From contig PLEQ01000232.1 in NCBI GenBank assembly GCA_003136475.1, positions 1-34,271 on the forward strand: DNA of 34,271 nucleotides, given 5' to 3'. The notes beneath the pieces were generated by a model. The model did no database searches, was not told the DNA's origin, and saw only the letters and a program-made list of their open reading frames with translations. The translations under genes were made by a program, and so were the position numbers. The number at the start of each line of letters is the position of its first letter. The first letter of the stretch is position 1. This DNA is from Deltaproteobacteria bacterium (lineage in GTDB: Bacteria > Bdellovibrionota_B > Oligoflexia > Oligoflexales > Bog-1112). Below are positions 2,159 to 29,463 of this stretch, in pieces.

Positions 2159-2167
2159 AAATTCTCA

Positions 2168-5841: not shown

Positions 5842-6297
5842 TTATAGTACGCCAACAATTTGGGTGAAGAGAGAAATATCGAATTCGGAAGGGTTAGCTT
5901 CATTAGGAACTAAAACGCCCATAAAAATAGCGGCATATCCAGATAGAAACCCATTTACTCCAACAGAGGGAACTATATTAGTTGGATTAGCGTCTATACC
6001 AATATATAGGGGGGTTCCTAAGGGATACGAATTAGTATTTGTGTATAATTTTAATCTACCGTTGGAGATGACTCCGCCCAAAGCTGAGGCCGGAATACGA
6101 AATTGTGCATATCCTACCCAATTATCCCAACTGGCTTGATTTGATACATCTAACGGAACAATTAAGCCTGAGGAATTAACGGAACATGCCATAGCTTGGG
6201 GAATGGCCGTGATGGCAGAGGCATTGGTGTAAGTAGTTAATAGGCCTTCTGAAGTTCCTGTAGATTGTGGATTGAACGATACTGGACTATATGACAT
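5842..6297 (-). CDS. small virion decoration or fibre-associated protein
   Basis: The 151-residue protein has no signal peptide or membrane segment and is rich in Ser, Asn, Gly and aromatic strands. Its second half (NGRLKLYTNTNSYPLGTPLYIG to DISLFTQIVGVL) resembles the closing domain of the 870-residue fibre in ending with a V-G-V pattern after a run of short strands. Its ribosome binding site, GGAG, lies inside the last codons of the upstream homing endonuclease gene, whose stop TAA touches the ATG. It sits between the large appendage protein at 6992-9943 and the large fibre gene, so a part in the fibre or baseplate is likely. I do not recognise a family. Confidence 0.65.
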   Translation of the reverse strand: MSYSPVSFNPQSTGTSEGLLTTYTNASAITAIPQAMACSVNSSGLIVPLDVSNQASWDNWVGYAQFRIPASALGGVISNGRLKLYTNTNSYPLGTPLYIGIDANPTNIVPSVGVNGFLSGYAAIFMGVLVPNEANPSEFDISLFTQIVGVL

Positions 6298-6990
6298 TTA
6301 ATTGTTCTCCACTTTTATGAAAGTATACCCATTTACTTGTTTGTATTTTCCATTAGTTACTGAGGAAATATTACCTTTGCTTATTTTTAATCTTCGAGAG
6401 GCGTCACCTATAGAGTTAAAACTAATACTGAGTTCAGGACAAAATATTTTTATTTTTCTTTTTTCATTACAATTTTTAAATATAGTTTTTGAAGCTTCAG
6501 ATGGGAATTTACCAAAACTATGGTGTTTTTGTCCCTTTACAGATTCTGAATGCTTCGTTCTAGATTCTAAGGATCTTTTTTTGCCCTTATTAGCCATAGA
6601 TATTTTAAGTTTAGATTCCGAAGTGTGTTTTTTACCAAACCAGTAGGATTTTTCTCTTTTTTTAGATTCGGACATCTTCCGTTTTGTCTCTTCGGAAACT
6701 ACGTGATTGTTTCCTCCTGTATGCAAATTATATCCATTAGGAGACAAGGTATTATGGTATTCTATAAAATACTCTTCTGCATTATTGAGATCCTGAATAT
6801 TATTGTAGATACCAATAATCTCTTTATAAAAAGAATTTATGCCATTCTTTTTAATGGCATTATAAATATAAATTGAATGTCTTTTATCTTGGCAATGCTC
6901 TTTCCACCTAATCTCAAAATCTCTTATAGTTTGTCCTATATAGGATTTTCCGCTGATCTTATCGGTTATTTTATAAATAACGCCAAACAT
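6298..6990 (-). CDS. GIY-YIG homing endonuclease with NUMOD3-type repeats
   Basis: The 230-residue protein starts FGVIYKITDKISGKSYIGQT (the GIY-YIG core), then IRDFEIRWKEH with the catalytic Arg region, and YNLHTGGNNH. Residues 95-170 contain SEETKRKMSES and HTSESKLKISMANKGKK units typical of NUMOD3. The end (KIFCPELSISFNSIGDASR to VNGYTFIKV) is a NUMOD1-like helix-turn-helix. It is a diverged relative of the enzyme at 546-1268, with the same domain order. It is packed with one base after the stop of the 983-residue gene and no base before the next ATG, and it supplies that gene's GGAG. This shows insertion without breaking either neighbour. Its own site GGTGGG lies in the end of the upstream gene. 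Confidence 0.93.
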   Translation of the reverse strand: MFGVIYKITDKISGKSYIGQTIRDFEIRWKEHCQDKRHSIYIYNAIKKNGINSFYKEIIGIYNNIQDLNNAEEYFIEYHNTLSPNGYNLHTGGNNHVVSEETKRKMSESKKREKSYWFGKKHTSESKLKISMANKGKKRSLESRTKHSESVKGQKHHSFGKFPSEASKTIFKNCNEKRKIKIFCPELSISFNSIGDASRRLKISKGNISSVTNGKYKQVNGYTFIKVENN

Positions 6991-6991
6991 A

Positions 6992-9943
6992 TTAAAATAC
7001 CCACCAGCCTGAAGATCCGTTAGCTATAAAGGAAGCTGATTGATATTGCACACTTTGAATAAAAGAGCTATTGCCATCTATAGTATCAGATCCTGAAGTT
7101 ATAATAGTTAAAGTGTTGGGGGTACTGTCTATTTTTTTACAGTATATGATTCTTCCAATATTTGGGGAAGACAAAAATAAAGTAAAAGTAATCGGCCCAG
7201 AAGTACAATCTGCTGCCAAGAAACAATCGGTATTTAAAATAGTATAATTACCAGTCTTAATACTAATAGCAACCGGACCCGTTGCACTATTTGCTCCAGG
7301 AGGACCTTGTGGACCAGTTGGGCCAGCTGGACCTGGGGGTCCTTCTCCGCCACCGCCGCCACCGCCACCGCCAGCACCGATTCGGAATTCTACTTCATCT
7401 CCTATAACTAAACCACCGCCGGGAAGGGTAAGGATTTGAATTTGATTGGATGGAGACCCAGTAGCACCAACTTCGGAATACGCTCCGGACTCGATGTCCA
7501 TGAATTGGCCATTTAAATATACCTGTAGGGTTCCTTTTCCTACAGTATATTGAGCTAGAGTATCGCCCTCTCTAGAATTTAGAGGTATGGTTATAATAGT
7601 ACCGTTAGCTACTGGACCATTTAAGGAGGATGGCGGCGTAGCACCGGAGGCAACAATTTCAATTACCTCATCGTAGGTCGGAGAATCCAGAGATGCGAAA
7701 AGATTTCCTAGAGCTTGATCAAGTTCTTTAATAGCGAGAGTTAAATTATCGCCATCCTTAATAACATAATTGCCAACACCAGTTCCAGATTGTGCTGTTG
7801 ATATAGTAAATGGGGCGCCAACATTACCATTAGAAGCATTGTTGCTAGTTCCAGCAGAAGTATTGGTTACAACTACTGTACCTACTCCGGCGACAGCGCT
7901 AAAATCATAAGGAGGAAATGTATTAAAAGCATTTGCTAATTTAGTAGCTACAGCTGTAGCAGTATCTGAGCTTAGAATGTCTACTTCAATAGCGTCATTG
8001 GTATTTGGTACAGTAGGAGCAGTTCCTGAACCACTGACTTTAAACCAGACTATATATTGTCTAGCATCAGCAGATGAATTAATCAAAAAGTATTGACTTG
8101 GACTAATAGTAGAGCCAGAACCGATAGTAATGTCTGTAATTTGAGGTACTGAGCCAGGATCTAAAGCGGAAACATATTTAGGACTAGCTGAAGCCGCAGA
8201 TGGAGATCCAATGTATTGGAGGAGTTCAAGAGAAGTAGTACCAGAAACTTCCACGGATTCGCCGTTATCCAATTCATGAGATAAAAATCTAATGTAAACT
8301 CGTGGTGCGCCACCATTATCTTCGCGCATAAATAACCAGAAAACATTCCCGCCAGCTGGAACAGTCGCTCTAGAAGAAATGTAAATGTCTCTGGTTGTGG
8401 TAGGAGTTGGAACAGCCAGATAGCTGCCAAAGGCGTACTGTGCTGGTGCGCCAACCGCTCCCGTGTTATCCCCAGAAGAAACATTCGAAGTCAATGTTAC
8501 TTGAGAAACTGAATCTACAGTTAAGATCTGATAATATCCAGCAATGGGATCAGAACTAAGCTTAATGTAGTCACCGGCTAGTAAGCCTGGAGTCCAACTA
8601 GCAGAGCCTACTGAAGTTACAGTTGGAGAACCTGCAACAAAAATAAGTTTTGGAATAATTGGTTGATCACGAATCAATGTAATATATGCAACTTGATCAT
8701 CAGAAAGAGTGATGTCTGAAGATGAGGGGTTGGCTGCTAGTACATAGGAAAGTTCAGATCCAACTACACGGATATCGATAGGATCATCCCAGTTAATTTG
8801 GCCAGGAACAGTGATGACGCTTGGACTATAAAAAGTAATTCCAATGCCAGTCCCATTAAGGGTAGCGGTCTGAGACATTGTAATAGTAGAGCCAGAAATA
8901 CTGATGATGGTAGTTTGGCTGGGAATACCGGTGCCAAAAATATAGTCTCCGTTTGATAAGCCCGCAGTTGAGGCTAGAGACGTAAGTTGATTACTTCCCG
9001 ACGTAATGTTTCCAGTAGTAACTAGAAGAGGATCTGAATTAGGCAAAATACCATTTGAGATCTCGCCTGGTCCAGTAATTACAGTGTTGCCAAGATCTTG
9101 GTATAGAGATAATAATGTAGGAAGTGAAGGAGATGGAGGGGTTGGTGTAGGTCCACTAAACCAGAAAGGAGTTCCTTTAATCTCCAGAAGGGTAGACATG
9201 ATAGCATTCATCCAATCCTTCATGGATGCTAGCTGTTTGTCGCCACCTACGAATGGATCTACTGAATTAGAAGTAGTTGTAACTGGAGACTGAGTCCTAC
9301 CTTCGCTCCACGGATACACGAAATTGGGATTAGGGTTCAATCCACCAGTCTCTAAACTGCAGAGCATCCAGCGACAATCGCTTATAGATACTACATTTCC
9401 ATTTCCATCAGTAACGACTTCAGCTATTGGAAGAACGTTTACGGCCCACACACTAGTTGTAATGTATATTTTAAATGTTAGAGTTTGTGCCGCTGGAGCA
9501 ATTACTGGAGTTTCATCATTAGCGGCAGCGTTCCAAATGTATTTAGTTACGTCGGTTGAAGAATCTGCAAACCTTACATAGTCGATTCCAACGTAGTTGG
9601 TGCTATTGGCAGTAAAAGATCCTGAAATATTGGTATTTGTGGCCGCATTGAGGGTTTGATTGGGTGTTCCCTCTGGAACCTGAAAAATCGTACCGGAAAC
9701 ACTGGCATTAATATTTAAAACAGCACCTGGATCTACTTGTAATTGTAGGCCATTTGCTGGGGAACCGATAGCTCCAGACGTAACTATACCAAAACCACGG
9801 ACAATATATCCCTGACTAGTTCCTGTCCAGATACCAGTTACTAACTCGTCGAAATCATTACGAACGCCAGATTCGATGCGCCTTGCATCAGAAATATCGT
9901 ATCTTTGTTCTGACAAAAGGTTAGAAGTAGTTAAAATAGCCAT
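6992..9943 (-). CDS. large baseplate/tail appendage protein with collagen-like stretch
   Basis: The 983-residue protein begins NLLSEQRYDISDARRIESG, an N-terminal region of the kind that attaches large phage baseplate or fibre proteins; I cannot name the family. Middle modules include GDYIKLSSDP and a unit at about residues 610-680 (YIVWFKVSGSG, then IEVDILSSDTATAVA) also found in the proteins at 13626-15566 and 15568-21900. Near residues 860-885 a run of about ten glycines leads into GPPGPAGPTGPQGPPG, a collagen-like triple-helix segment implying a trimer. The last 95 residues form a C-terminal fibre domain ending SSGWWVF. The ATG is preceded by AAGGGG at 8 bases and by CAATCTTAT. It probably links the baseplate to the fibres encoded after it. 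Confidence 0.8.
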   Translation of the reverse strand: MAILTTSNLLSEQRYDISDARRIESGVRNDFDELVTGIWTGTSQGYIVRGFGIVTSGAIGSPANGLQLQVDPGAVLNINASVSGTIFQVPEGTPNQTLNAATNTNISGSFTANSTNYVGIDYVRFADSSTDVTKYIWNAAANDETPVIAPAAQTLTFKIYITTSVWAVNVLPIAEVVTDGNGNVVSISDCRWMLCSLETGGLNPNPNFVYPWSEGRTQSPVTTTSNSVDPFVGGDKQLASMKDWMNAIMSTLLEIKGTPFWFSGPTPTPPSPSLPTLLSLYQDLGNTVITGPGEISNGILPNSDPLLVTTGNITSGSNQLTSLASTAGLSNGDYIFGTGIPSQTTIISISGSTITMSQTATLNGTGIGITFYSPSVITVPGQINWDDPIDIRVVGSELSYVLAANPSSSDITLSDDQVAYITLIRDQPIIPKLIFVAGSPTVTSVGSASWTPGLLAGDYIKLSSDPIAGYYQILTVDSVSQVTLTSNVSSGDNTGAVGAPAQYAFGSYLAVPTPTTTRDIYISSRATVPAGGNVFWLFMREDNGGAPRVYIRFLSHELDNGESVEVSGTTSLELLQYIGSPSAASASPKYVSALDPGSVPQITDITIGSGSTISPSQYFLINSSADARQYIVWFKVSGSGTAPTVPNTNDAIEVDILSSDTATAVATKLANAFNTFPPYDFSAVAGVGTVVVTNTSAGTSNNASNGNVGAPFTISTAQSGTGVGNYVIKDGDNLTLAIKELDQALGNLFASLDSPTYDEVIEIVASGATPPSSLNGPVANGTIITIPLNSREGDTLAQYTVGKGTLQVYLNGQFMDIESGAYSEVGATGSPSNQIQILTLPGGGLVIGDEVEFRIGAGGGGGGGGGEGPPGPAGPTGPQGPPGANSATGPVAISIKTGNYTILNTDCFLAADCTSGPITFTLFLSSPNIGRIIYCKKIDSTPNTLTIITSGSDTIDGNSSFIQSVQYQSASFIANGSSGWWVF

Positions 9944-11619: not shown

Positions 11620-12051
11620 ATGGATATAGCTTCTATTATTTTAAATGCGGCTAAAGCAGTAAAAGTATCTGGAACTCTTCTTTTGGCAATTTGTAACCAT
11701 GAAAGCAATGGTTTTACTTTAAATTATACTCCTCATGATAAGGGAAGTCCTTCATTTGGATCGTGTCAAATTAAAGAAAGTACTGCAAAAATGTTGGGCT
11801 TTAAAGGTAATGTAAAAAAGCTCAATGATCCTAAAATAAATGCCAAGTATGCAGCACTATATCTACAATATCAAGAACGTCGTTACGGAAAAGATAATTG
11901 GATAGCAATCACCTCCAGTTATAATGCTGGATCTTATGTTTTAAGTAAGAAAAACCCAAAATGTCCTAAAAACATTAAATATGTTAATTTAGTAAGAACA
12001 AAACTTCCTGAATTCTTAAAAAATAAATTAGAATGTCAATTAAATAAATAA
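11620..12051 (+). CDS. lytic transglycosylase (SLT-type), probable endolysin
   Basis: The 143-residue protein is a compact lysozyme-like transglycosylase that would cleave the MurNAc-GlcNAc bond of peptidoglycan. The motifs of the SLT family appear in order: ICNHESNG with the likely catalytic Glu28, SFGSCQIKESTAKMLG (45-60), and AITSSYNAGSY (96-106). The protein is essentially the catalytic domain alone, with no signal peptide and no wall-binding domain, so it would act from the cytoplasm with a holin or as a virion part. It is the first gene of the 11620-13191 island and carries its own sigma70-type promoter. No clear Shine-Dalgarno precedes the ATG, in keeping with a leaderless message. Use as lysis enzyme is likely but not proven; the small two-helix membrane protein at 32069-32254 is a distant holin candidate. 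Confidence 0.88.
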   Translation: MDIASIILNAAKAVKVSGTLLLAICNHESNGFTLNYTPHDKGSPSFGSCQIKESTAKMLGFKGNVKKLNDPKINAKYAALYLQYQERRYGKDNWIAITSSYNAGSYVLSKKNPKCPKNIKYVNLVRTKLPEFLKNKLECQLNK

Positions 12052-13625: not shown

Positions 13626-15566
13626 TTAAGGACCGTAAATATAAGAAATTTCATTAGCGCTAGGTGACGGACTTTGCCATCCGCCTAAACCTATATCATT
13701 AGGATAAAGTATTGTAAAAATTACGGTAACGCCAGCCGCCACGATATCATCAATAAGACCTTGGGCCCACACTCTTCCCGAAGCAGTATCCGTCAAGTAT
13801 GGTTGGTAATAAGACCCATTCGTTGGCAATACGATAGGACTGTTTTGGGTTACTAATAGGACAGATTCTCCAATTGGATGATCTTGTTGTATGAAATATG
13901 CTGGAGAAATAAGAATTGTTCCAGAACTTGGTACCGCAATATATGGAATTGGACCTTCCTGATTTTGAGTTCCGTAACCAAGTACGATAAACCCGGACTC
14001 ATTGGGAAAACCATTTGAGCTAGCTACCGTAATTACCCTGCTAGTTTCTCCATTAACTTCTTCTGTCAAAGTAGTGCTTGTTCCACCGACAACGAATCCC
14101 TGTTGAGTGTCAAAAATATAGGGTCCTAATGTAGTAGGTAAGCTTGGGCCAGCGTCGGTTTCTGTGGATACCGTAACGTTTTCTAAAATAAGTACATTGT
14201 CTACAGTAGACAAAGTCAGCAGTGGATATGCTGCAGCTATAGCGGCCATAGCTTTAGTGGCCACAGTTGCAGCAGAATCGCTACTATTTATAGTTACTTC
14301 AATGCCGGTAAACCCCGCAGGAGCTGGATTCGTATTGCTGCCACCAAAGACATTCAACCAAACATAAAATAAGTAGGAAGTTCCAAGATCATCCATTATA
14401 AAATATGCAGCTTGTCCTGTGGAAGAATACGTACTTCCTTCCGAAAATACGAATTGTGCTACTGGATATTCCGTAACTCCGTGCAAATGTGCAGACCCTA
14501 TTCTAGAACGTTTGATAACTTGGGTAACGGCAGGCATGAATATCTGGAGTATATTTTTTTGAGTTTGATATACTGCAGCATAATATTGTTTACTTAATAT
14601 GGTTTCCCTAATCGGTACATAAAATAATATTGCAGAATCTGTTCCTTGAACCACAATTCCTGGGCTTCCGGTAGGATTATTTATTTCAAAATAGGCAATT
14701 CCAACTGCACCATCTTGTGCTGATACTACCGTAAAAGTGCCTTGATTTGGGGAAGACGTAAATCCTCCTCCATAAATATTTACATATTGCATTGGCTGAA
14801 CATCGCCAATTCCAGGATTCGCCCCACCAGTCCAAGTAAACCTTAAATTACCTCCAGGTTGAAGAGAAATGGTCCATTGAGTAGAAAAGTTACCAGAAGA
14901 CGGTACGGTAGAAGGGAATAGAAAAACGTTCTGGGATCTACCGCCCAAAACTGTTACTGAAGAAGATGCTCCAATAGTACTAGAAAGTAACTGCACATAA
15001 TTTCCATTACCATCATTATTAACTATGGCACTCCCAGAAACACCTAGATTACTTAAACCGATAGAAATAGCGTTGGCAACTTCTTGGGCAGTAGCTGCAG
15101 CTATTGAAGTAAATTGGGATGAAGTAAAAGTGATAGTACTAGTATTTGCGCCATCAAAATTGACGATTAGGGTATCTCCATTTTGGAGAGCATATGGCTC
15201 AAAAGTTTGAGCATTGCTGGTAGCCTTGCAAAACTCATCACCAAAAACCGCATCTAAAATATTGTTGATTAAATCCCTTACCTGTTTACGATTTTTAACC
15301 TGTATTCCTATCGTGCGAAATACGTCATCCGACAAACCAATTCTAGGGTCTCTGGTAATGCCATAATCTGCCAAAAGCAGATCTAAGTAATTTCCTTGAG
15401 CTGTAGTGATATAAAGGCTGTCATTAACCGCTTGGATAGAATTCACCAAATAGGATGAGGATGTGGCAAGAGCGTCTAGAACAGCGTCCACATTCTTACC
15501 TTTAAGATAGGGATTAAGATAGCTTCTAAGTCTAATATATTCTTGCTCTTCAGTTGTTACAGCCAT
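13626..15566 (-). CDS. baseplate wedge protein, J/gp6-related
   Basis: The 646-residue protein starts with a helical part (LRSYLNPYLKGKNVDAVLDA) followed by GNYLDLLLADYGITRDPRIG (59-78), which resembles the N-terminal region of baseplate-J-type proteins. After that come beta modules shared with the giant neighbour at 15568-21900: GDTLIVNFDGANTSTITFTS (130-149), a GGGFTSSPNQGTFTVVSAQD unit (265-284), the IEVTINSSDSAATVA unit (about 388-490) and the GPIPYIAVPSSGT plus HPIGESVLL unit (515-575). It starts 1 base after the giant gene ends, so both are probably made together and sit in the same wedge. Part of its DNA is nearly identical to the giant gene (see the 26-base repeat at 14275-14300). Confidence 0.75.
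   Translation of the reverse strand: MAVTTEEQEYIRLRSYLNPYLKGKNVDAVLDALATSSSYLVNSIQAVNDSLYITTAQGNYLDLLLADYGITRDPRIGLSDDVFRTIGIQVKNRKQVRDLINNILDAVFGDEFCKATSNAQTFEPYALQNGDTLIVNFDGANTSTITFTSSQFTSIAAATAQEVANAISIGLSNLGVSGSAIVNNDGNGNYVQLLSSTIGASSSVTVLGGRSQNVFLFPSTVPSSGNFSTQWTISLQPGGNLRFTWTGGANPGIGDVQPMQYVNIYGGGFTSSPNQGTFTVVSAQDGAVGIAYFEINNPTGSPGIVVQGTDSAILFYVPIRETILSKQYYAAVYQTQKNILQIFMPAVTQVIKRSRIGSAHLHGVTEYPVAQFVFSEGSTYSSTGQAAYFIMDDLGTSYLFYVWLNVFGGSNTNPAPAGFTGIEVTINSSDSAATVATKAMAAIAAAYPLLTLSTVDNVLILENVTVSTETDAGPSLPTTLGPYIFDTQQGFVVGGTSTTLTEEVNGETSRVITVASSNGFPNESGFIVLGYGTQNQEGPIPYIAVPSSGTILISPAYFIQQDHPIGESVLLVTQNSPIVLPTNGSYYQPYLTDTASGRVWAQGLIDDIVAAGVTVIFTILYPNDIGLGGWQSPSPSANEISYIYGP
14275..14300. repeat. 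26-base repeat shared with 16640-16665, copy A
   Basis: This stretch in the 646-residue gene is identical to 16640-16665 in the giant J-like gene, and similarity continues on both sides for more than 80 bases with mostly third-position changes. It encodes the TINSSDSAA part of a module found in both proteins in the same orientation. Confidence 0.85.
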
Positions 15567-15567: not shown

Positions 15568-18500
15568 TTAAGAGCCTATCAATGAAACAGAAATATCTGT
15601 AGCGGGATTTACTATGAAAGCTTTTTCACCAGTTACTAACACGATTTCATCGTTTGTAACAGAATAAGTAGGGCTTGTAATGACCACACTAGTTATACCA
15701 GGAATTAACCTTACTGTTTCTACTATGCTGCTAAGATCCAAACTTTGACCTAGAGGGTTAGCTTGAACCAGAGCATACACTGAACTTTGAATCTGAGAAG
15801 TAATTTGGGCAAATGAAACGCCAATCGCTGTCCTAATAGCCAATGCAATCTGGATTCTCTTTAGTAATGGCTCTCTGATAAAGATGTCTGTTCCGGCAGC
15901 ATTCACACCAGGATAGGTAACAGGATCTCTTGGATCCCCATATATTACTCTATTAGCCTGTCCAATCAACCCAGTATCGTAATTATAGCTGTCTATGCCA
16001 TTCACAATAGTGGTTGGAAAATTCAACTTTCCTAGAGAGGTCATTGCCACTCCTGCTGACAAATCTATTTTGTCATATTGAGCAGAAGTATTGAATACTA
16101 TATTGTTAAAATTTGCAGTTCCGGATTGTAGGGAAACATATGACACCTGTTTATATCCAGTATATGCCTTACCTTCTTGTACAGATAACGATACGGAATT
16201 GCCGTCCAGATTAGTATTAAATTGAGTAGAAATAACACCAGCAATCACTATTGTCGTAGGGCTTAATACTTGTAGAATATTGTATGTTCCAGCGTTTCCG
16301 GCTCCCAAAACCGTTCCATTAACTAACAACTTGTCTCCTGGAACTGTAGCTTCATATGTGAAGAACTGTATTTGTGGTCGATCTATTGAAAAAGTGACCG
16401 ATGAAATTCCTGATTGTGTTACGGCTGAAGGATTTATCACGCTCAAGAAAGGTCTTTGTCCCGATTGTGTAACAATGAAACTAAAAGCAGCAGGCATTGA
16501 AACATCTACTGGAATGTTGGTTTGGGCCGCAACCGTGGCAGTAACCGTTACTATATTGGTAAGGGCTACATAAGATGCCGTCATGGCCGTCAAATGTCCA
16601 TTAATAGCAGCATATGTTGCAGAAGCAACTGTAGCAGCGGAATCGCTACTATTTATAGTTACTTCGATACCAGTAAATCCTATTGGTGCTGGATCCGTAT
16701 TGCTTCCGCCTAATACGTTGTACCAAATATAGTATTGGTTTGCATTCCCGCCATTGTAAATCTCAAAATATTCTCCAGGACCCGTTGAAGTAAAGGTAGC
16801 TCCTGAAGGTAGGATTAATTGAACAACTTGTTGCTGTGATGGTCCAGAGTTTACCACCATGAAATTGCCTACATTGCCACCAGTAAAGCCGGATCCGAAT
16901 GTAACGATATCTCCTGGAAGAGCTACGCCAAGAGAAGGTGGGGTTCCTGTTCCTGTCCAACTTAATGTTTCAGTCCCACCAGATGTGGTTACATTGAAAA
17001 CGGTAGAAGAATCGTATCCAGTAGAAATGATGTTTGCAATACAAGTTACTTCTTCTTCAACAACATTTGTGTTTTCGTACCAAACGCTATTATTAAACAT
17101 ACGAATAACTCTATATGTTCCCTGATTAAGAGGAGAGAATGGGGAAGATAGGATTAAAGTATCTCCCTCAGATACTGAAATAGTAGAGTTAAATTCACCA
17201 GCAGTAATTGCTGTTCCGGTCTCAGTAGTCGCATTTGAATTTGATACGAAAAATGACAGTCCGTTTGTTCCAATACCTTCTATAAAAAAAGCACCATTAT
17301 TCCCTGGATTGGTCATACCAGAAATGTGTATGAGGTCCCCTATGGAAAGATCGGCAAAATTTGTATTTCCAGAAGCAACAGTATAAGTAGCCGTGGTGTT
17401 GGCCACAGTGACATTTACGGTCCATCCGCCAGAATCGTTTAGATTAGCGACCGTGCTAAAATTTGGAGATGTCCCAACACCATTCCAACTTAAGCAAGCT
17501 AGAGAGCCCTGCTTCTCTATTCTGAATGTATCTCCTTCTACCCTTACAAAATTCTTAGGACTTCCAAAATAAAGTTCCCCAGATTCTTGATTTAGCAAGG
17601 TTACTGTAGATTTTCCAGAAGACGGCGTATTGCTTAATACGGTCACGCTTGTATTGGCGCTTATGCCAGTATCTTTATTTTGAGAAGTTTCTGCTTGTAG
17701 TCTAAACCATTGATCGCTAGCAACTGCTTGACTGGCTACACTATTAGCAGAAACGATCATCTCGTTATTACCGAGTAATTCTCCGGAAGTCAATATCGGA
17801 ACAACGTACTCGTTTCCACTACCGCCAATTATTTGGATAGATCCTATCGATCCAATAGTATTGGTGGCCAATTGAAGTTTGGTACCGCGTTCCACAACTT
17901 CTACGGTTCCGACCGTAGTAAATCCGGTAACAGCTAAAATATTCCAAAAATCTTTAACCTGATCTATAGTAGTTGGAATAAGCATTACGGTTTCTCCACT
18001 TGTGAAGAAACTGTATCCCGGTGCGCTAGGGTATGTTAGAGAATTTTTAAGAGTAAATTGGGGACTTCCGCTAACATTCGAACTGAAAATCCAATTAATG
18101 CCGTCCAATAAATAATATGATGTTATAGTAAAATTACTATTTTCGTAAGTACTAAGAACGATAGTTCCGGATCCATCTCCATTAACTATGGCAGACGTTA
18201 TATATTTATTCAAATTTGCATTGACATACGTATTTACTGCTGAAGCCGTTGTTGGCGTAGCAGTATAAAACTGAATGCCAGTAGGAACTGTGGTGACAAC
18301 ATTTGATTGAGCAACAGCGGTTCCAGTTGGTACTTGTACACTAAAGGAGGTAGCCGTAGGAGTAAATCCTACGGCGGTTGACACCCTAAAGGTTCCGGTA
18401 TTGGCTATATTGAATCCAGTAGATGGGGCTATAGTAACATATGAACCACCAGATACGGAGCCTAGTCCTGGAGCTACGCCTGTACCATTGTAAGTATATG

Positions 18501-21500
18501 TTACTTGATCGACGCCCGCTACAGGAGTATTCGATGTAATTGTTACGTTCCATTGCGTGCTAGAAGTAATGGTCGTAGAAATTGGATTTCCAGAAATCAA
18601 GCTTATCTTGATACTAACATTATTGTTGGGAGTTACGGTTACAACTGAATTGATTGGTTGATTGGCAGAAGTAGGATACGTGTACGATACATTGATAAAC
18701 TCCCCACTTCGACCAAACGGAGTTGATCTATAAAGCAACGATGTATTAGAAGCTGCACTACTAACCACATACTTTGCTTGCATCAATACTTTATAATTTG
18801 CAAAAAAATCTGTGGGCGTAGAAAAATTGGCAGAAAAACTGGCTGTAGTTCCAGCAGCAGTATCGTAAGCGTTGAAACTAAAATTATTGGCTGGATATGT
18901 ACTATTCACTAATGCAGCTCTAAATAGAGGCATTGTATATGTCTCACCAACTGTATTGTTATCCACGATAGCGACTAGAGTATCATTGTATCCAAAATCT
19001 AGCGGATTTGCCACGTAAAAACGATCGTTGACCCTTAATCTCCTGACATCTGGATAAACTGGTAAAATATTAACAGTATTACCACCAGAAATAGCGGACA
19101 TTTGTACAGTTTCTTTAGAAGGCTGCTCATCGTCCAAGAGAGTTCCTGGAACAACGCCGTACGGATTTAAAAACTGTATTAATTCATTTGGATCAAAACC
19201 GGAAATGGTTTGAGTAGAATTAAAAGTGGTCAAAAAAGAATCTGGTGGTTCAGCAAATGAGTCCGAACTGATGGTAGAATGGAAGAATAGGGGAAGTTCT
19301 GCCTGAGAAGCTTGTGTTTCATAATTGGCTATCAAAGCTGGCTGACTAGAACTATTGGTTCCACCAACAAATCCTATGAGCGCTCCCTGTGAATCTGCAG
19401 TAACTACAGTAATTTGACCTGTGGTGGCTTCCGTATTAGTAACTACAGTGATGTTGGTATCATCAAAAACAGCAAAAGTTAGCTCATCTGTTTGAGACTG
19501 TAACTCATCTGCGATTACATTGAGAGTGCTAGTTCCCGACAATACTTCGAATTTTTGTGGTACATTAGGAGTTCTTACAACGACGAACCCCTGAATAAAA
19601 GCAGCATTTACCACGGGCGTTACGGCAGCGGCTTCGGCTGCAGTGACCTTTACACTCAAGGTAGAACCAGTTTGGGCATACACCCTGCCTTCTAGTCTAT
19701 CCGTAGAAGGAATCTCTGTAGACCAAACAATGACATAGTCTCCAGGGATAACATTTGAAAATGAAGATGAGGAATTGCTGGTATAGGTAACAATATTTCC
19801 AGATACTGAAACTGTAAGTGTTGATCCACCAACAATAGTTGGTATAATTATCGCATCGGTGTCAATAGATATCCAAATATACGCATTCGATGTTAGTGTA
19901 ACAGATCCAGAAGACACAGTTCCAGCCTTAATATTTGCTTGAGTAATAAGGGTGCCAGCAGATAGTGAGTCGCCGGCCTTGAGAGCTGTAGCCAATTGAA
20001 TCTGCGCCGTGTTTCTATCCAAAATATATTCGGAAGCAGCACCCGTAGAGCTTAAGTCTGTATTGCTAATAAAACCTTTTGCAATGAGAGAAGTTGGATT
20101 ACCCACGGTATTGACTACTGTTACTTGGGCTCTGTCTATGGCTCCTAAATTGGAAGTCAATTCAATAGTAGATCCAACAATAGAAGCTGTAATTCCAGTA
20201 ACGACATTGTTTAAAACATTAACCCATGATTGAAGACTGTTCGAAGATGATAGGGTTGTGTATGTGCCTTCGGCAATAAAATCCGCATCTGTGAGAGTGT
20301 AAGTAATTGGAGAAGTACCGTCTACCGATAAACTGAGAGTTTCTCCGGAAGCTATTGTGGGAGACCATAAGCTTTGAGGTTGTGTAAATATAGATGCGGT
20401 AGTTCCATCTTCTATTAAGAACACGCCATTTTTATAAAGTCTTAGAGTTTCGGCTTTCTGTGATGGAAATTGCAAAATGGTATTTGCATCTACAACCAGC
20501 GAGCTGGCAGGCGTAGTGATTTGAATAACATTGGTTACTTCGTCTTCAGGACGAATAACCACAAATGTTCCACCACCTGCAGTTACAGCTTCATAATTTA
20601 ATGAAGTGTCTCCATTTAAACTTGCACAAACTTCATATGCAGTGGCAGATCCCGGATTTTGGAAATCCGATGCTTGAAATTCGTGCTCATAAGTTATATC
20701 GCCAACAATAACCGCTAGGAATTCGCCACCCTTTAAATTAAAAGGTTCTGCTTGAACAGTTTGGAGTAAGGCCTTAGTGACTGAAGTCTGTGTTCCACCA
20801 GTTTGGAGCTGAAAAAACTTTTCTCCACCCAAAGCTGAATTTACTATAGTTTCAATTGGTACGCCCTGATGTGTGGCTTCATAACCAGCGCCATTATCAA
20901 CATATACAATAGTATTGGCAGAAGAATTTAAGATATCGGTACTTACGATGGTATCTGAACTATTAGGACTCTGTACGCCCTGCAAAGAAGACTCAATGGC
21001 AGTAACGGTTCCAAGTCCAGTAGAGGCTAGTTTATTTTTAACCCTAATACGAAGTTGATTGTCTGTTTCCGTATCTGAACCAGTAGTCAAAGCTAATGGA
21101 TTAATAACGGAAGAGTTTGGTAGCCCTGGAGGATTACCAGAAAATTGTGATATGGCTCCTGCTGGAACATTTCCAGATGCACCGGGTAGTTGAGCAGTGA
21201 TGGGGATATTAGATACCGTGGTTTCTCCATCTAAAATTACACCCTGTTGAGTAACAGAATATTGTACCGTGGCTGTAGTGCCAATTCCTGGGGAGATGAC
21301 GATCGTGTTGACTGGAATAGTTCGTACTCCACCCTGAGATAGAATTACCGATTCGCCAATATTATGATATTTTGTAGTGGGCGAAGAAAGATTTATGGCG
21401 TAATAAGATCCAACAGGAGTAATGGATGAGTATGGTAGTGGGCCTTCTACGTTTACCGTCCCTCTTCCGATATAGATCGCTCCAGAAGATGGGAAGTTAG

Positions 21501-21900
21501 ACGCATTACTAACATAAATAGTAGTTGATCCGGCAATTGGTGGATTTACGCCTGCATAGATAACGGTAAATATTTTCTGAAAAGAAAGATCGGTCACAGT
21601 AACAAAACCGGTAGCAACTTTGGCTCCCAAAGGAGTAACACCGTCTTGAATGGCTAAATTTTGGAGAGCCGGTCCAGTTGCGCGATCAAGAGAGTAATCA
21701 CGAAGAATCTGAAAAATATCCCCAGAAGATCTGGCCACCATAAGGGCCACGAGCTGAAAGAAGGCAACGTTGGGCGCACCAACATTAAGATCGTCCACAC
21801 CTATTGATGCCGCATAGCTAGAAAGAGCCTGACCTAGTAGCTGTTGGTAGGAAAGTGGCTGTGGTAAACTGCTGCTAGGGGGAGTCGGGGAAGTTGCCAT
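15568..21900 (-). CDS. giant baseplate J-like protein with large central insertion
   Basis: The 2110-residue protein has baseplate-J-type ends and a very long middle. Residues 18-95 (SYQQLLGQALSSYAASIG to ALQNLAIQDGVTPLG) and 266-310 (NPLALTTGSDTETDNQLRIR, then GTVTAIESSLQGV) carry the classic J signature. The last 125 residues (REPLLKRIQIALAIRTAIGV to PGITSVVITSPTYSVTNDEI) match the J end. Ordinary J-type wedge proteins have a few hundred residues; here about 1600 are inserted, made of repeated beta modules such as PGDYVIVWSTE, GNNGAFFIEGIG and IEVTINSSDSAATVA. J forms the wedge that links hub and fibres. GGAG lies 14 bases before the ATG, an unusually long spacing; an in-frame TAA excludes earlier starts. 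Upstream are a hairpin and CAATCTTAT. Confidence 0.85.
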   Translation of the reverse strand: MATSPTPPSSSLPQPLSYQQLLGQALSSYAASIGVDDLNVGAPNVAFFQLVALMVARSSGDIFQILRDYSLDRATGPALQNLAIQDGVTPLGAKVATGFVTVTDLSFQKIFTVIYAGVNPPIAGSTTIYVSNASNFPSSGAIYIGRGTVNVEGPLPYSSITPVGSYYAINLSSPTTKYHNIGESVILSQGGVRTIPVNTIVISPGIGTTATVQYSVTQQGVILDGETTVSNIPITAQLPGASGNVPAGAISQFSGNPPGLPNSSVINPLALTTGSDTETDNQLRIRVKNKLASTGLGTVTAIESSLQGVQSPNSSDTIVSTDILNSSANTIVYVDNGAGYEATHQGVPIETIVNSALGGEKFFQLQTGGTQTSVTKALLQTVQAEPFNLKGGEFLAVIVGDITYEHEFQASDFQNPGSATAYEVCASLNGDTSLNYEAVTAGGGTFVVIRPEDEVTNVIQITTPASSLVVDANTILQFPSQKAETLRLYKNGVFLIEDGTTASIFTQPQSLWSPTIASGETLSLSVDGTSPITYTLTDADFIAEGTYTTLSSSNSLQSWVNVLNNVVTGITASIVGSTIELTSNLGAIDRAQVTVVNTVGNPTSLIAKGFISNTDLSSTGAASEYILDRNTAQIQLATALKAGDSLSAGTLITQANIKAGTVSSGSVTLTSNAYIWISIDTDAIIIPTIVGGSTLTVSVSGNIVTYTSNSSSSFSNVIPGDYVIVWSTEIPSTDRLEGRVYAQTGSTLSVKVTAAEAAAVTPVVNAAFIQGFVVVRTPNVPQKFEVLSGTSTLNVIADELQSQTDELTFAVFDDTNITVVTNTEATTGQITVVTADSQGALIGFVGGTNSSSQPALIANYETQASQAELPLFFHSTISSDSFAEPPDSFLTTFNSTQTISGFDPNELIQFLNPYGVVPGTLLDDEQPSKETVQMSAISGGNTVNILPVYPDVRRLRVNDRFYVANPLDFGYNDTLVAIVDNNTVGETYTMPLFRAALVNSTYPANNFSFNAYDTAAGTTASFSANFSTPTDFFANYKVLMQAKYVVSSAASNTSLLYRSTPFGRSGEFINVSYTYPTSANQPINSVVTVTPNNNVSIKISLISGNPISTTITSSTQWNVTITSNTPVAGVDQVTYTYNGTGVAPGLGSVSGGSYVTIAPSTGFNIANTGTFRVSTAVGFTPTATSFSVQVPTGTAVAQSNVVTTVPTGIQFYTATPTTASAVNTYVNANLNKYITSAIVNGDGSGTIVLSTYENSNFTITSYYLLDGINWIFSSNVSGSPQFTLKNSLTYPSAPGYSFFTSGETVMLIPTTIDQVKDFWNILAVTGFTTVGTVEVVERGTKLQLATNTIGSIGSIQIIGGSGNEYVVPILTSGELLGNNEMIVSANSVASQAVASDQWFRLQAETSQNKDTGISANTSVTVLSNTPSSGKSTVTLLNQESGELYFGSPKNFVRVEGDTFRIEKQGSLACLSWNGVGTSPNFSTVANLNDSGGWTVNVTVANTTATYTVASGNTNFADLSIGDLIHISGMTNPGNNGAFFIEGIGTNGLSFFVSNSNATTETGTAITAGEFNSTISVSEGDTLILSSPFSPLNQGTYRVIRMFNNSVWYENTNVVEEEVTCIANIISTGYDSSTVFNVTTSGGTETLSWTGTGTPPSLGVALPGDIVTFGSGFTGGNVGNFMVVNSGPSQQQVVQLILPSGATFTSTGPGEYFEIYNGGNANQYYIWYNVLGGSNTDPAPIGFTGIEVTINSSDSAATVASATYAAINGHLTAMTASYVALTNIVTVTATVAAQTNIPVDVSMPAAFSFIVTQSGQRPFLSVINPSAVTQSGISSVTFSIDRPQIQFFTYEATVPGDKLLVNGTVLGAGNAGTYNILQVLSPTTIVIAGVISTQFNTNLDGNSVSLSVQEGKAYTGYKQVSYVSLQSGTANFNNIVFNTSAQYDKIDLSAGVAMTSLGKLNFPTTIVNGIDSYNYDTGLIGQANRVIYGDPRDPVTYPGVNAAGTDIFIREPLLKRIQIALAIRTAIGVSFAQITSQIQSSVYALVQANPLGQSLDLSSIVETVRLIPGITSVVITSPTYSVTNDEIVLVTGEKAFIVNPATDISVSLIGS
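16640..16665. repeat. 26-base repeat shared with 14275-14300, copy B
   Basis: The second copy of the identical stretch, at about residues 1745-1754 of the giant J-like protein. It implies recent duplication or gene conversion between neighbouring structural genes. Confidence 0.85.
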
Positions 21901-21993: not shown

Positions 21994-24630
21994 TTATAGT
22001 TGTGATGTAGGTAATTGGAATGATACCGGAAAAACTCCCTGAATGCCGCTTAGCCCCACCCCTAAATTAATTACTAGACTTGGGGGTGTAATTAGTACTT
22101 GTAATCCGGAAATATTAGAAAAACGAGGATCAGCTGTAATTAAGTTCGTGATTTCATTATATATATCAGAAGCAGATGTGTCAGAAACCATAGTTCCAGG
22201 CTTAGTCCCCAATCCAAAGCTTGGATTGGACAAATCGCTCCCAAGTGGTGTTCCAAATTTAATGGCTAAAGCCTGTATTAGATTAGGAAGTCCGGCAGCC
22301 AATTGAAAGTCTCCGGTATTGTTTACAGCTAAATCGCCTTGTGGAGTCAATAACCAAGATACTTTGGATAATCCTACCAAATCTACATTGGCAACACTGC
22401 TAGGAATTGTAATTTGGTCGTCTGCGGTAGTCTGGAGATCAGAAGGAATCCAAATTACGTTTTGGGAATTTACAGTGCCGGGTAAATAGGCCTGTAAATA
22501 CGCTTGATTAGCGGTCGTAAATGTGTCCAAATTTGGTAGTCCATCCAACGTTATAAGAAAACTAGTTTGTGACAGAGACACTATGTTTATAATAGTACGA
22601 GCAACTGGATTTTGGTTGTTTGCATAGAGATATATGGTTTGGCCAATAAAAAGATCTGTATCGGAGCCTACTACAATATTTCTGCCATCGGCATTAGATA
22701 ATAAAGAATACTGGAATCCATCCGGATCTATATATGGCTCTTGTAAGAAATTTAATGTAGCTATCTCCAACCATCTAGCAGAATCTCCTAAATATCTCTG
22801 CGCAATTTGTTCCATATTCAGTCCTGCTGGAACTGGAACCTGAATTTTGGAGTTAGAAATAGAAAATTCAATTCCAGAAGTTGCGGCTAGAGCATTGACA
22901 TATTCCATATTATTTAAAATTTGATTGTTATCAAGCTGATTGGTTGCAGTCAATATGTCATAACTTTCAACTAATTCATAAAATGATTGTAAGATATAGT
23001 ACTGATCCAGAGTCATGGTATTTTCAGTTGCAATAGGGGGAGGCGTATTGAAAAGTGTGCTATAGTACGAATCACCAGCACCAAAAGAAGTTTCTAATTG
23101 GGTGCATAGTGTAAGAATAACCCCACGCATTGTTTTCAAATTTGCAACCGTAAAATTGCTTACAGTATTTAATTCATTACTAAGAGCTGTTGATTGGGCA
23201 GTATTTAATGTTAAGCTATTTACGGGAACTTGGCTAAAAAGCATTGGATTCTGCAGAGGATTGGCAAATATCGTACTTGATGGGTTTAACGTAGAAGATG
23301 CAATTGCATTAGGTCCCAACTGACCATTTGCTACTGCGGCTGAAGAAAGGCCTTCATTTTTTTGTTGCAAGGCTTGTACGTTAGATAAATTGGTTTGCGT
23401 GGTATTGTCAGTAGCCGCTGGACCAAAGAGATTGTTTGGGTTAACAGTAGATAAAAAATTTGATATAGTGCTTTGAGCATCTTTGGTTAATTGAGCCGGC
23501 AAATCATTAACGGCTAAAGCTACTCCCGCCAATTGTTTTACAAAAATTCCGGTCTGTCGAATGATGTTTAAAATATTGTCAACATCTGACCTAACGGCCC
23601 CGATCAAATTGGTTGCAGCAGCCGCAGTATTTTGTGCAGCTTGAATTATATTTAGTATATTCTGGAGTACGCCAGGACCAAGAGGCGTTACTTGAAGTGG
23701 GACGGCGACTAGGTTATCATTTAAGTTAACCCTGCGCCATGCTTTAAATTGTAGGTTGTAGTCAATTTGCAAGGGCTTATTTGCATTTTCATTCCAAGTA
23801 AATCCTACTGGTGTGACTACGAAACTTTGATTCTGTTTGGGGATATCAAAGACCAAACGCCACCCGGCATTATCGGGATTTCTTTTGGCTTCAGCGTATT
23901 GTTCCAAAAACTGAGTTAGCATGAGAGTCTGATAATAACCAGTACCCAGACCATTTTCGGGATCTTGGGGATCTCCTGGTCTTATAGTAGTAGGTTTAGA
24001 CGCATTAGAGCCATTAGTGACGTTGTTAATAATTGATTGAAATTGAGTGGCAACGTTTTGTGCGGCCCCTATGGTACCACCAAAAACGGACTGAAGTATG
24101 TTGGGCGTTCCTGGAGGATTAACAGTTGAAGGTCTTCCGGGCCATACGCCAAAAGTTCCTTGAATAGAGATATTCTTAAAACGAACTCCGGAATGTTCTT
24201 CTAAGATACCACGTAAAGTAGCGGAAGTATTAATAGAATATGCATCTGTAATAGACAATTGTTGTGGAGTTATAGGCAAAAAGAATTCCCAGGCCGTACT
24301 CAATGGAGTAAAAGCCAAAGTACCGTTGCCAAGTGGGTTGACCGTAACTTTTGAAGGTAGGTTGCCCCCAACTACCTGATTATTGTTGGAAGTGTCTATA
24401 ACAACAAGCCTATAGGGTACTAGCTTATCCCAGAGTTCCCCTTTGGGAGACAAATATTGAAAAAATGTACTGTTTACAATAGGTTGAGCATTAGAATTGG
24501 GCGCAGTAGTAGGACCGGCATTGGGAACTACTGCCCAAGGGAGGTTACCGAACAAGGAACTGCCTCCTGGAGGCGCCGTAAGGCTTCCTAAAGCTGAACT
24601 AAGACCTAAAGAATCAAGTAAGCCTGGCAT
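21994..24630 (-). CDS. baseplate/tail tip fusion: XkdP-like LysM protein plus gp25-like domain
   Basis: The 878-residue protein starts at ATG 24630 with AGGGG 6 bases upstream; a TTG directly before would leave too short a spacing. Residues about 110-175 (FFLPITPQQLSITDAYSIN to GVRFKNISIQGTFGVWPG) resemble the N-terminal domain of XkdP/LysM tail proteins that dock to the tube. Residues about 590-640 contain VPAGLNMEQIAQRYLGDSAR and WLEIATLN, a LysM-like unit. The last 120 residues (LPNLIQALAIKFGTPLGSDL, then DIYNEITNLITADPRFSNI) match the gp25/XkdS baseplate family. In most phages these are separate genes. A Gln/Asn-rich helical linker lies in the middle. It probably connects hub and wedge. 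Upstream is CAATCTTAT; downstream is the J-like gene. Confidence 0.8.
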   Translation of the reverse strand: MPGLLDSLGLSSALGSLTAPPGGSSLFGNLPWAVVPNAGPTTAPNSNAQPIVNSTFFQYLSPKGELWDKLVPYRLVVIDTSNNNQVVGGNLPSKVTVNPLGNGTLAFTPLSTAWEFFLPITPQQLSITDAYSINTSATLRGILEEHSGVRFKNISIQGTFGVWPGRPSTVNPPGTPNILQSVFGGTIGAAQNVATQFQSIINNVTNGSNASKPTTIRPGDPQDPENGLGTGYYQTLMLTQFLEQYAEAKRNPDNAGWRLVFDIPKQNQSFVVTPVGFTWNENANKPLQIDYNLQFKAWRRVNLNDNLVAVPLQVTPLGPGVLQNILNIIQAAQNTAAAATNLIGAVRSDVDNILNIIRQTGIFVKQLAGVALAVNDLPAQLTKDAQSTISNFLSTVNPNNLFGPAATDNTTQTNLSNVQALQQKNEGLSSAAVANGQLGPNAIASSTLNPSSTIFANPLQNPMLFSQVPVNSLTLNTAQSTALSNELNTVSNFTVANLKTMRGVILTLCTQLETSFGAGDSYYSTLFNTPPPIATENTMTLDQYYILQSFYELVESYDILTATNQLDNNQILNNMEYVNALAATSGIEFSISNSKIQVPVPAGLNMEQIAQRYLGDSARWLEIATLNFLQEPYIDPDGFQYSLLSNADGRNIVVGSDTDLFIGQTIYLYANNQNPVARTIINIVSLSQTSFLITLDGLPNLDTFTTANQAYLQAYLPGTVNSQNVIWIPSDLQTTADDQITIPSSVANVDLVGLSKVSWLLTPQGDLAVNNTGDFQLAAGLPNLIQALAIKFGTPLGSDLSNPSFGLGTKPGTMVSDTSASDIYNEITNLITADPRFSNISGLQVLITPPSLVINLGVGLSGIQGVFPVSFQLPTSQL

Positions 24631-24644
24631 CAAATACCCCTACA

Positions 24645-26581: not shown

Positions 26582-27496
26582 TTATTGCCCAGCCATTACT
26601 GTAGGAACACCTATGGTAGGAACGCCTGTTATTAAATCTACAACTGGATCGGTCATATTTGTTAAGACCATTCCGGCTTGTCCATTTAGTTGAATAGTTG
26701 ATCCAGTAACAACGGCATTACCAGTGGCAGTAATATCACAATTACCTCCAGCATTTATTACGGTATCATTGCTAGAAGTTATATTTACAGCACCCGAAGC
26801 GTTAATGTTACAATCAGTTTTTGTGGTAATAGTTAGTGCTCCACTCTTATCTGCCAAAATATCAATAGTAGAGTGGTTAAACTCAAACGATCCATCAGTC
26901 TTGATTTGAAATGTGGTAGTTCCTTGTGAAGAATCGGTTGGTTCTCCTTCACTATCTGTAGCTCCATTGAATGTTAGCGCAGTGCTTCCATCTGTATTGA
27001 CCTTTATATTTACTCCATTATATTCTCCTTCTAAAAAAGGATCTGTGCTAACTAAGTTAGTTTGTCTGTCTGGATGAGTAACAGAACCAATAATTATTGC
27101 TTTCTCGCTCAGGGCATCTAAGCATAGAAGCAAAACTATGGCCCCATTTTGTCCTTTAAAATTCATTAAGCTTTCATTGACATTTAATTTAGTCCTAATT
27201 CTTAAAGCTTTTTCAAAATAATCAGCGATAGATCCCATACCTTCAGAAGCTAAACAATTTTTATAAGTATTTGACGCAACTCCCTTATTTTCGTCTTGTT
27301 GGATAGCGACAACATCGTATTCTGTAGTTAGTTTTGAAATATTGTTTGGATCGTTTACGTCATAGGCGTTAACGACCATACCCACGCGCAAAGGTGTGTT
27401 TTTATACGTCCTATTAAATCCTCTAGAAAAGTCTTCTACATTAGATCCCAAAAGACCATGGGGAAGAACGGTTCCATTCCTTAAAAAGTTGGTCAT
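26582..27496 (-). CDS. baseplate spike protein (gpV/gp45-like)
   Basis: The 304-residue protein has the layout of a contractile-tail spike. Residues about 34-155 (LRVGMVVNAYDVNDPNN to AIIIGSVTHPDRQ) form an OB-fold-like domain that seats on the hub. Residues about 200-280 are short repeated strands (GALTITTKTDCNINASG, AVNITSSNDTVINAGG, NCDITATGNAVVTGS), the intertwined trimeric beta-helix typical of spikes. The end (MTDPVVDLITGVPTIGV) lacks an obvious iron-binding HxH motif, so the tip may differ or be separate. Its ATG overlaps the hub stop (TAATG). It would pierce the outer membrane during injection, consistent with a Gram-negative host. Confidence 0.85.
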   Translation of the reverse strand: MTNFLRNGTVLPHGLLGSNVEDFSRGFNRTYKNTPLRVGMVVNAYDVNDPNNISKLTTEYDVVAIQQDENKGVASNTYKNCLASEGMGSIADYFEKALRIRTKLNVNESLMNFKGQNGAIVLLLCLDALSEKAIIIGSVTHPDRQTNLVSTDPFLEGEYNGVNIKVNTDGSTALTFNGATDSEGEPTDSSQGTTTFQIKTDGSFEFNHSTIDILADKSGALTITTKTDCNINASGAVNITSSNDTVINAGGNCDITATGNAVVTGSTIQLNGQAGMVLTNMTDPVVDLITGVPTIGVPTVMAGQ

Positions 27497-29463
27497 TATT
27501 TTTTCCTACTAGGCTTTATTGGGGGTGTTTTTGTAAGTTTTATTTGAGCTGGTTGAGGAAAAGAAGTATCGGGCTTATCTAAAGGTTTTTTCTGATCTAT
27601 TCCTGGAGAACGCTGAGGAATGTCCTGACTTTCAGAAACACCTGGCAATATTTGATTATTTCTGTAATCTATTTCTCTCTCTTTATATGCATTAGTATGG
27701 TCCATACCAGGATAGATTGTCCCACCATTTTGGTTACTATTGCTTAATATAGAAAGGCCTTGACTAACACTTATAGTAGTTCTAAAGCTTTTTCTTCCAC
27801 TTTCCGTATTTATTTCACCCCTGTGGGTTACTTGTTCTATATGGTATACGATTCCATCATATTCTAAATTGTCCCCAACAGTAATAGGATCTACAATACC
27901 AACACAGTTCAGTGTTCCATTAAACTTGAGGTGTCCACCAATCAAGGCATCTCCGACTATCTTGGCCCAAAAAGGACTATTGAATGATTCTTTTGCTGCT
28001 CCAACAGGAACTACATCAAACATTCCGCTTACTACTATAGGCCTTAATCCACTTCTCTGTATGTCATTTACATCTTGAACATAATTAATTAATTGGGTTT
28101 CTATGGCATAATCATTGCCACTGTTAGTTTGACCAGTCTTACCAAAAATTTGTACGTAATTCACCCTAGCAGCTTCATCTCTGCCCAAATCTTGAGCTAT
28201 AACTATGGAAGGATCTATTTTCCATCTGGGAACCGTTAAAAATCCTGTAGTATTGGGGGCTCCACTCGCTGATTGATTGGCTACTACAAAATCTGGGGTA
28301 GTAAATGGTATTTGTCTGAAAACAACAGTGGGAACAACTCTATCTGCATTAGGTGCTATCCTAAAACAAGAATAAAATTCATTAACTGGCTTATTAACAT
28401 ATTGACTTAATATGTCCCATACTTTTACTTGATCCCAATATTCAATTTTTAGTACCGAAGTACCGGTACAATCTACAGGGGTAAACCAAAACCTAGTTGG
28501 TTTGCCTGAAATTGTATCGGCTACTTGAGATAGCCCAGAAGGATTAAATCCCTCATGAAGAGAGAGATTTGAATTCGTTCTAGTATATGATTGAAGACCA
28601 AATACGAAATTATAGATATCTGCAGCTGTTTTTACGTTAGAATTACCCAATAAATTACCGACTACCAATGGCATAAAAAGAGTTCCATTGGGAGTAGTTT
28701 GAAATAGCGGAGAGGAATTTTGATTAGTGTCTGGAGTACCTACCCCTATAAACGCTGATGCTAACTGCATTATCAATTGTCGTAAAGAAAAAGGATTTTC
28801 CGAGTTAGCCAGTGTCTCCCACCTCTGTAAAATTTGACTTGCGAATGTAAGATATCCAGGATTTTGGAGCGCCACAGCCTGATTAAAATAAATCATGTTG
28901 TTAAATTCAGTGAACGCATATCCCGTAATGCTAATAACTCTAGTGACAGCACCGGTTTGGGCATTTGTAACGGCCAATCGTTCTCTAACAGACTGTACTT
29001 TAAAAAACCCTTTAAATCCATCATCTATTTCATTAATTGGTTCCTTACCATCGTCAGCCCTGCTTGCTACGTCTTCGGCGTCACTTTCCCAATTTAACAT
29101 GTTGACAAAAACGAAGTCTCCTGGGGCTATTTCCGTCAAATAATCTACATTAGTTTGTACCAATATCGCTTCCATGCTGGGGGTATAAGAAGATTTACTG
29201 GAAGTAACAGAAATGCTAATACAATCGTTTCTAACGACCAGAGTTTCTTTTACTGATTTTAGTTGAGATAGTAAAGAAGAATTTGGGTCTCCACCATTAG
29301 TTATGGAATTGCTAATTCTTAAAGTATCTCTGTATTGCCATCTAACAAAAGTCAGCACCCAAGCTGGACTTGATTGATTAACCAAACCATCGTCTATTCC
29401 GCCATCGGATCCATAAGCCGGATCTGGACCAATATCATATGTATAGGCTCTAGAGTCAGACAT
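27496..29463 (-). CDS. baseplate hub protein (gp27/gpD-like)
   Basis: The 655-residue protein lies between tape measure and spike, the standard hub position. Beta-rich segments include ETLVVRNDCISISVTSS, LTEIAPGDFVFVNML and FFKVQSVRERL, which match the two tube-like barrels of hub proteins. The middle holds KIEYWDQVKVWDILSQYVN, and later come DNLEYDGIVYHIEQVTHRG and FRTTISVSQGLSIL, typical of gpD-type hubs. The last 70 residues are Pro/Lys/Asn-rich and disordered (QPAQIKLTKTPPIKPSRKK). It probably forms the trimer on which the spike sits. It starts 2 bases after the tape measure stop. Confidence 0.82.
   Translation of the reverse strand: MSDSRAYTYDIGPDPAYGSDGGIDDGLVNQSSPAWVLTFVRWQYRDTLRISNSITNGGDPNSSLLSQLKSVKETLVVRNDCISISVTSSKSSYTPSMEAILVQTNVDYLTEIAPGDFVFVNMLNWESDAEDVASRADDGKEPINEIDDGFKGFFKVQSVRERLAVTNAQTGAVTRVISITGYAFTEFNNMIYFNQAVALQNPGYLTFASQILQRWETLANSENPFSLRQLIMQLASAFIGVGTPDTNQNSSPLFQTTPNGTLFMPLVVGNLLGNSNVKTAADIYNFVFGLQSYTRTNSNLSLHEGFNPSGLSQVADTISGKPTRFWFTPVDCTGTSVLKIEYWDQVKVWDILSQYVNKPVNEFYSCFRIAPNADRVVPTVVFRQIPFTTPDFVVANQSASGAPNTTGFLTVPRWKIDPSIVIAQDLGRDEAARVNYVQIFGKTGQTNSGNDYAIETQLINYVQDVNDIQRSGLRPIVVSGMFDVVPVGAAKESFNSPFWAKIVGDALIGGHLKFNGTLNCVGIVDPITVGDNLEYDGIVYHIEQVTHRGEINTESGRKSFRTTISVSQGLSILSNSNQNGGTIYPGMDHTNAYKEREIDYRNNQILPGVSESQDIPQRSPGIDQKKPLDKPDTSFPQPAQIKLTKTPPIKPSRKK

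Follow-up and report, generated by a model that had tools for sequence, protein, structure and literature searches.

The window analysed here, a stretch of 34,271 nucleotides, corresponds to contig C6 in a bin that is fragmented into 520 contigs. Within its tail-gene cluster lies one open frame (15568–21900, minus strand) that runs from ATG to stop over 2,110 residues, and its product is a true J protein, the baseplate wedge component of a large phage with a contractile tail. The cluster comprises:

29466–31763: gene in the tape-measure position, with a coiled N-terminus by eye and no family match
27496–29463: gene in a hub/spike position
26582–27496: gene in a hub/spike position, with a weak baseplate-assembly match
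21994–24633, minus strand: upstream gene, an 879-residue baseplate protein in a gp25-like position, with phrog_975 (baseplate protein) at its C-terminus
15568–21900, minus strand: whole gene of the baseplate wedge (J) protein, 2,110 residues, assigned by Pfam, PHROG and reading frame
13626–15566, minus strand: downstream gene, a 646-residue tail protein that directly follows J in related contigs and carries modules in common with the arm
1301–9943: fibre-like genes beyond the downstream gene

In this gene order, the gene ending in phrog_975 takes the gp25 position upstream of J, and no homology to gpI was detected in the downstream gene. Because the J gene is absent from all 55 related genomes, the contig most likely belongs to a phage whose DNA ended up in a bacterial bin. 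This absence, together with the three matches that we found in species genomes, all of which lie in metagenome bins of unrelated phyla, speaks against a provirus of the binned bacterium.

Two J-type ends in one reading frame

J ranks with the best-conserved components of contractile injection machines, and its known versions are compact; the ordinary J frames that genomes of the same class carry have 286–398 residues. The protein described here owes a size 5–6 times the usual to conserved beta-domains, ~1,640 residues in all, that sit between two parts of an ordinary fold. A frame of this length invites the suspicion that an assembly error joined two genes or that a frame was read through, all the more as the window comes from so fragmented a metagenome bin and another copy in the same bin (C111) contains stops. 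We regard this explanation as practically negligible and already refuted, as the same single frame recurs in 77 related IMG/VR contigs and in the cultured phage Mx1 (1,925 residues); these intact homologues rule out gene fusion by sequencing error. The first-pass annotation had proposed a J protein of about 2100 residues with an insertion of about 1600, and both figures hold: the frame is intact at 2,110 residues and the insertion covers ~1,635 (342–1976). Its parts are as follows (all on the minus strand):

Residues 1–103 (21592–21900): J N-terminal part, 'core bundle' region, with three predicted helices (18–33, 42–68 and 77–85)
Residues 104–190 (21331–21591): small beta insertion in the 'wing' position (position from PMC11329794)
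Residues 191–341 (20878–21330): Baseplate_J Pfam region, 'trifurcation' part
Residues 342–1976 (15973–20877): giant insertion (arm), 1,635 residues, beta-rich, most of its length confidently predicted
Residues 857–965 (19006–19332): stretch of poor prediction that may act as a hinge joining the proximal to the distal arm, with an insertion hot spot after 918
Residues 1103–1173 (18382–18594): one copy of the 'GD.V.I..N.G.F.V' beta repeat
Residues 1516–1684 (16849–17355): three copies of the GD.V.I beta repeat, with insertion hot spots inside at 1561 and 1674 and another immediately ahead at 1509
Residues 1691–1815 (16456–16830): 'YxWYNV' module, found in 39 of 57 J proteins
Residues 1850–1890 (16231–16353): one copy of the GD.V.I beta repeat
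Residues 1977–2110 (15568–15972): J C-terminal (dimerisation) domain, beta-alpha-alpha-beta

The first-pass annotation had also seen J-type signatures at both ends of this one frame, and here too our searches agree. At the N-terminal end, Pfam Baseplate_J (PF04865) matches residues 193–294 (E 9.9e-12; 45.1 bits, where the cut-off is 21.1), the phrog_6 baseplate wedge subunit matches the whole protein at E 3.8e-24 and residues 1–367 alone at E 1.9e-28, and a profile of this part matches four solved baseplate J/wedge proteins by sequence. An AlphaFold2 model of residues 1–925 (model A; pLDDT 78.7, pTM 0.39) predicts N-terminal helices (18–33, 42–68, 77–85 and 280–294) and a trifurcation fold of J type. 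In a Foldseek search with this model, all 15 matches at E<=0.001 came from the baseplates or tails of contractile phages, among them phi812, phiCD508, cyanophage A-1(L), P1, Mu and T4; when the N-terminal part was compared with whole J chains, TM-scores were low (0.2–0.4) despite good E-values. The same search returned matches to FliD and to FliC D2-D3, which, at TM <0.4, make flagellin/FliD-like domains in the middle a lead only.

At the C-terminal end, Pfam detected no J signature, profile comparison alone with small J sets was not significant, and the PHROG match was weak (phrog_1608, E 0.003). Fold search settles the point, placing a C-terminal dimerisation domain of J in the predicted structure. 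Foldseek aligned this end with the C-terminal domain of pyocin PA0618 (PDB 5ces_A) over 99 columns, with TM 0.76 by target length, 2.6 A, prob 1.00 and E 9.6e-3. BLASTP further pairs residues 293–342 of the 366-residue J of Thermus phage Riverbug with residues 2029–2078 of the window protein (E 7e-4). Segment structure prediction and Foldseek thus identify both ends as J folds, so that neither of the two outcomes that the first-pass annotation had named as refuting its view, a joining of two genes or ends without J folds, came about.

Because Riverbug J also aligns upstream (its residues 111–252 with 202–341 here, BLASTP E 2e-11), its residues 252 and 293 flank the insertion and place it at about 342–1976. 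Forty residues of a normal J correspond to ~1,690 residues here, and the giant insertion falls precisely at the junction of the 'trifurcation' part of J with its C-terminal dimerisation domain. The small beta insertion at 104–190 sits where the wing domain of J has been placed (PMC11329794) and has a 37% identical module in the downstream ORF 13626–15566 (residues 509–607).

Anatomy of the arm

The distal arm is predicted well, a model of residues 916–2110 reaching a mean pLDDT of 85.9 and a pTM of 0.72. The middle of the protein had been described as rich in Ser, Thr, Val and Gly, a composition that is not special to it (S/T/V/G 0.43 in the middle versus 0.41 and 0.37 in the ends). It had also been described as built of repeated beta modules, which is true in part. 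What repetition could be detected consists of a short beta unit, 'GD.V.I...N.G.F.V', in about five copies, and of a second, weak repeat pair near 389–429 and 516–554. We composed the GD.V.I pattern after the copies were known, so its shuffled control overstates significance; profile comparison of the repeats is free of this post-hoc weakness.

The low-confidence stretch at 857–965 may, judging from the models, be a hinge, and the hot spot after 918 within it is used by PF11999 domains in relatives. It could also be read as a cleavable linker, in which case the protein would be cut after assembly, the insertion would serve as an assembly scaffold or be shed, and the J ends alone would stay in the virion. 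We consider this very improbable: no protease site or precedent was found, and shedding the arm would take two cuts because the chain has to pass out of the J fold and back into it.

Arm modules recur in the downstream ORF 13626–15566 (47% identity over 115 residues, E 8e-22) and in the fibre-like ORF 6992–9943 (33% identity, E 5e-8), and the YxWYNV module is common to the window J and both of these. Such sharing would suit an arm that chiefly holds tail fibres or the downstream kelch/fibre-like proteins on the rim, with the shared modules as assembly interfaces. Each of the 78 loci indeed has a homologue of the downstream gene, at a median distance of -2 bases to the J end (the upstream gene has one in 73 of 78), and over most of its length the arm shows the conservation of structural genes. 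Yet 18 of 57 J proteins lack the YxWYNV module, and it is occupied in only ~43% of downstream proteins, so it cannot be a required interface, and recombination would also explain the common modules. On balance, we think it unlikely that the arm is such a docking platform.

Conservation and exchangeable modules among relatives

A scan of IMG/VR yielded 121 related stretches, of which 80 were kept as loci. With Mx1 included, 78 of 81 loci carry a single J frame of 1,759–2,919 residues, and 56 of the 78 single-frame genes are non-redundant at ~92% identity. The longest related contigs measure 149–176 kb, similar to Mx1. The source phage is related to Myxococcus phage Mx1 and probably has a genome of 150–176 kb like its relatives.

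Across 57 non-redundant proteins, arm columns are occupied in >85% of sequences, and mostly in >90%, except at 1681–1830. Mean pairwise identity is 0.44–0.53 over most of the arm and 0.38–0.40 in its last part, against 0.52–0.56 in the J ends and 0.45–0.52 in the two neighbouring baseplate genes. Being nearly as conserved as the J ends, the arm behaves as a structural element and not as a hypervariable receptor-binding tip.

This scaffold is nevertheless decorated. Relatives carry extra domains after window residues 160 (in the small insertion) and 599, 918, 1120–1137, 1273, 1509, 1561 and 1674 (in the arm), all in or a few residues from stretches predicted as coil or with low confidence. At least five kinds of module occur: PF11999, YxWYNV and three others of ~72 ('...SGTGD...'), ~70 ('SN.I.G..S') and ~91 residues. 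When mapped on a tree made solely from J-core sequences, every site shows 2–6 changes of state; accessory modules have thus been acquired and dropped at roughly eight loop sites of J. The largest arm expansion that we observed is an insert of 663 residues in locus L065, after the position that corresponds to residue 1561 of the window protein, with several YxWYNV-type modules in a row.

The ice-binding-like domain PF11999 (DUF3494) has no Pfam match in the window protein. It is found in proteins of relatives (P0002, P0003 and P0004; E 7e-33 to 5e-57). In close relatives, the inserts in J lie at 1530–1719 (L004), at 1527–1718 (L005) and, in two copies of which the best-scoring spans 938–1125, in L006. 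One such module used as a query against deposited phages gave no match at E<=1e-3. PF11999 genes in viral contigs, with homologues in Synechococcus phage S-SKS1, have been reported (PMC11515562), so the family is not new to phages; its location inside a J gene appears to be. That study lists PF11999 among auxiliary metabolic genes, whereas in the loci L004, L005 and L006 modules of the same family are inserts in a virion baseplate gene. Ice-binding-like domains inside a virion gene offer an alternative to the 'auxiliary metabolic genes' label.

Exchangeable modules on predicted arm loops, PF11999 in close relatives among them, would also fit an arm that is itself the main receptor-binding or host-adhesion device. 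We find this improbable, because the arm core tracks structural genes in conservation instead of being hypervariable, separate fibre-like genes lie downstream (ORFs 1301–9943), and Pfam matched no receptor-binding or sugar-binding family in the window protein.

Proposed position of the arm on the baseplate and known systems

The reading that we favour, and hold to be probable with some room for doubt, is that this is the wedge protein J of an Mx1-related contractile phage with an obligate ~1,640-residue arm, and that 12 arms form a skirt at the rim, made of a scaffold and exchangeable modules. In solved baseplates, the C-terminal domain of J reaches out to the neighbouring wedge (PMC11329794, PMC11915804). 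Because the insertion directly precedes this contact domain, arms or a skirt are the most economical reading. The earlier proposal of arms or a skirt is therefore plausible in that the insertion adjoins the inter-wedge domain; the outward position is one that we infer. Its suggestion of sugar-binding or fibre-docking modules is so far unsupported for this protein: Baseplate_J is the sole Pfam family above cut-off in it, and no sugar-binding or fibre-docking domain was detected.

With two J copies per wedge and six wedges (PMC11915804), there would be 12 arms, adding ~2 MDa of protein. These would leave the iris ring at the rim, where neighbouring wedges shake hands, and form a peripheral skirt around the baseplate. 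The conserved beta-domains would act as a structural scaffold, and the exchangeable loop modules would tune contact with surfaces or cells. Since the dimerisation domains shift on contraction, the arms would move along with them. Such a skirt may stiffen the ring, hold fibres or contact cells. The exit direction of the arm from the core is not fixed by model A because of its low pTM (0.39). The surface role is proposed by analogy with the modules of relatives, as the window protein itself yielded no binding domain. We found no solved structure of such a giant-arm baseplate. A broader proposal, which we put forward as doubtful, is that in this clade of large myophages the wedge ring would be a modular adhesive skirt whose 12 arms offer loops on which surface-binding domains, including ice-binding-like ones, can land, apart from the fibres.

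The closest cultured counterpart is the J protein of Mx1 (OR576727, WNM70274.1, 1,925 residues, 'baseplate protein J-like protein'), which shares the gene, the order of parts and the arm at 34–35% identity. It is shorter than the window J and lacks the YxWYNV module, and the next gene in Mx1 is annotated as a kelch-repeat protein. The genome of Mx1 measures 169.6 kb, and its contractile tail is long (PMC10720576); a word search of the phage's genome paper (PMC10720576) found no mention of a baseplate. As a cultured phage, Mx1 makes the giant-arm reading testable.

By fold (Foldseek), Mu gp47, pyocin PA0618 / R2 TRI-2, diffocin Tri2, phi812, phiCD508 and T4 gp6 share the core bundle, trifurcation and dimerisation domain, but these proteins have ~290–660 residues and lack the 1,640-residue insertion. 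By sequence, the closest normal-sized J proteins (366–429 residues) are those of haloviruses (HRTV-7, -14, -25 and HJTV-2) and of Riverbug, with 29–36% identity over window-protein residues ~200–410 and an hhalign probability of 99.4 over 6–397. They too are without the giant arm, and the window protein aligns collinearly with Riverbug J at either end. Long 'Baseplate protein J-like' proteins of uncultured Caudovirales phages (BFVD A0A6J5L250, A0A6J5KUV1 and A0A6J7WUL1) are further counterparts, the best of which matches the distal arm model at E 1e-59; these entries carry automatic names only, and we saw no functional description of them. Homologues are therefore already in public databases as 'baseplate J-like'. 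In the open-access literature, which leaves out most papers of subscription journals, we found no paper on the insertion, on giant J proteins or on DUF3494 in baseplates. If the favoured reading is true, the wedge ring can serve as a platform for surface decoration, with a conserved arm about four times the size of an ordinary J and module exchange at defined sites.

Several smaller observations concern the contig and its bin. The neighbouring tail-fibre-like proteins 1301–2158 and 2168–3112 have related C-terminal repeats in common. Two GIY-YIG/NUMOD homing-endonuclease genes (546–1268 and 6298–6990) lie among the tail-fibre genes, and a transglycosylase SLT (lysozyme-like) gene (11620–12051) is encoded on the plus strand and so runs against the direction of the tail genes. 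Partial giant-J copies occur on other contigs of the same bin, C316 and C145 being mostly 52–57% identical and C111, whose stops fall in two pieces, 58–78%; these copies probably represent two more related phages that were binned together.
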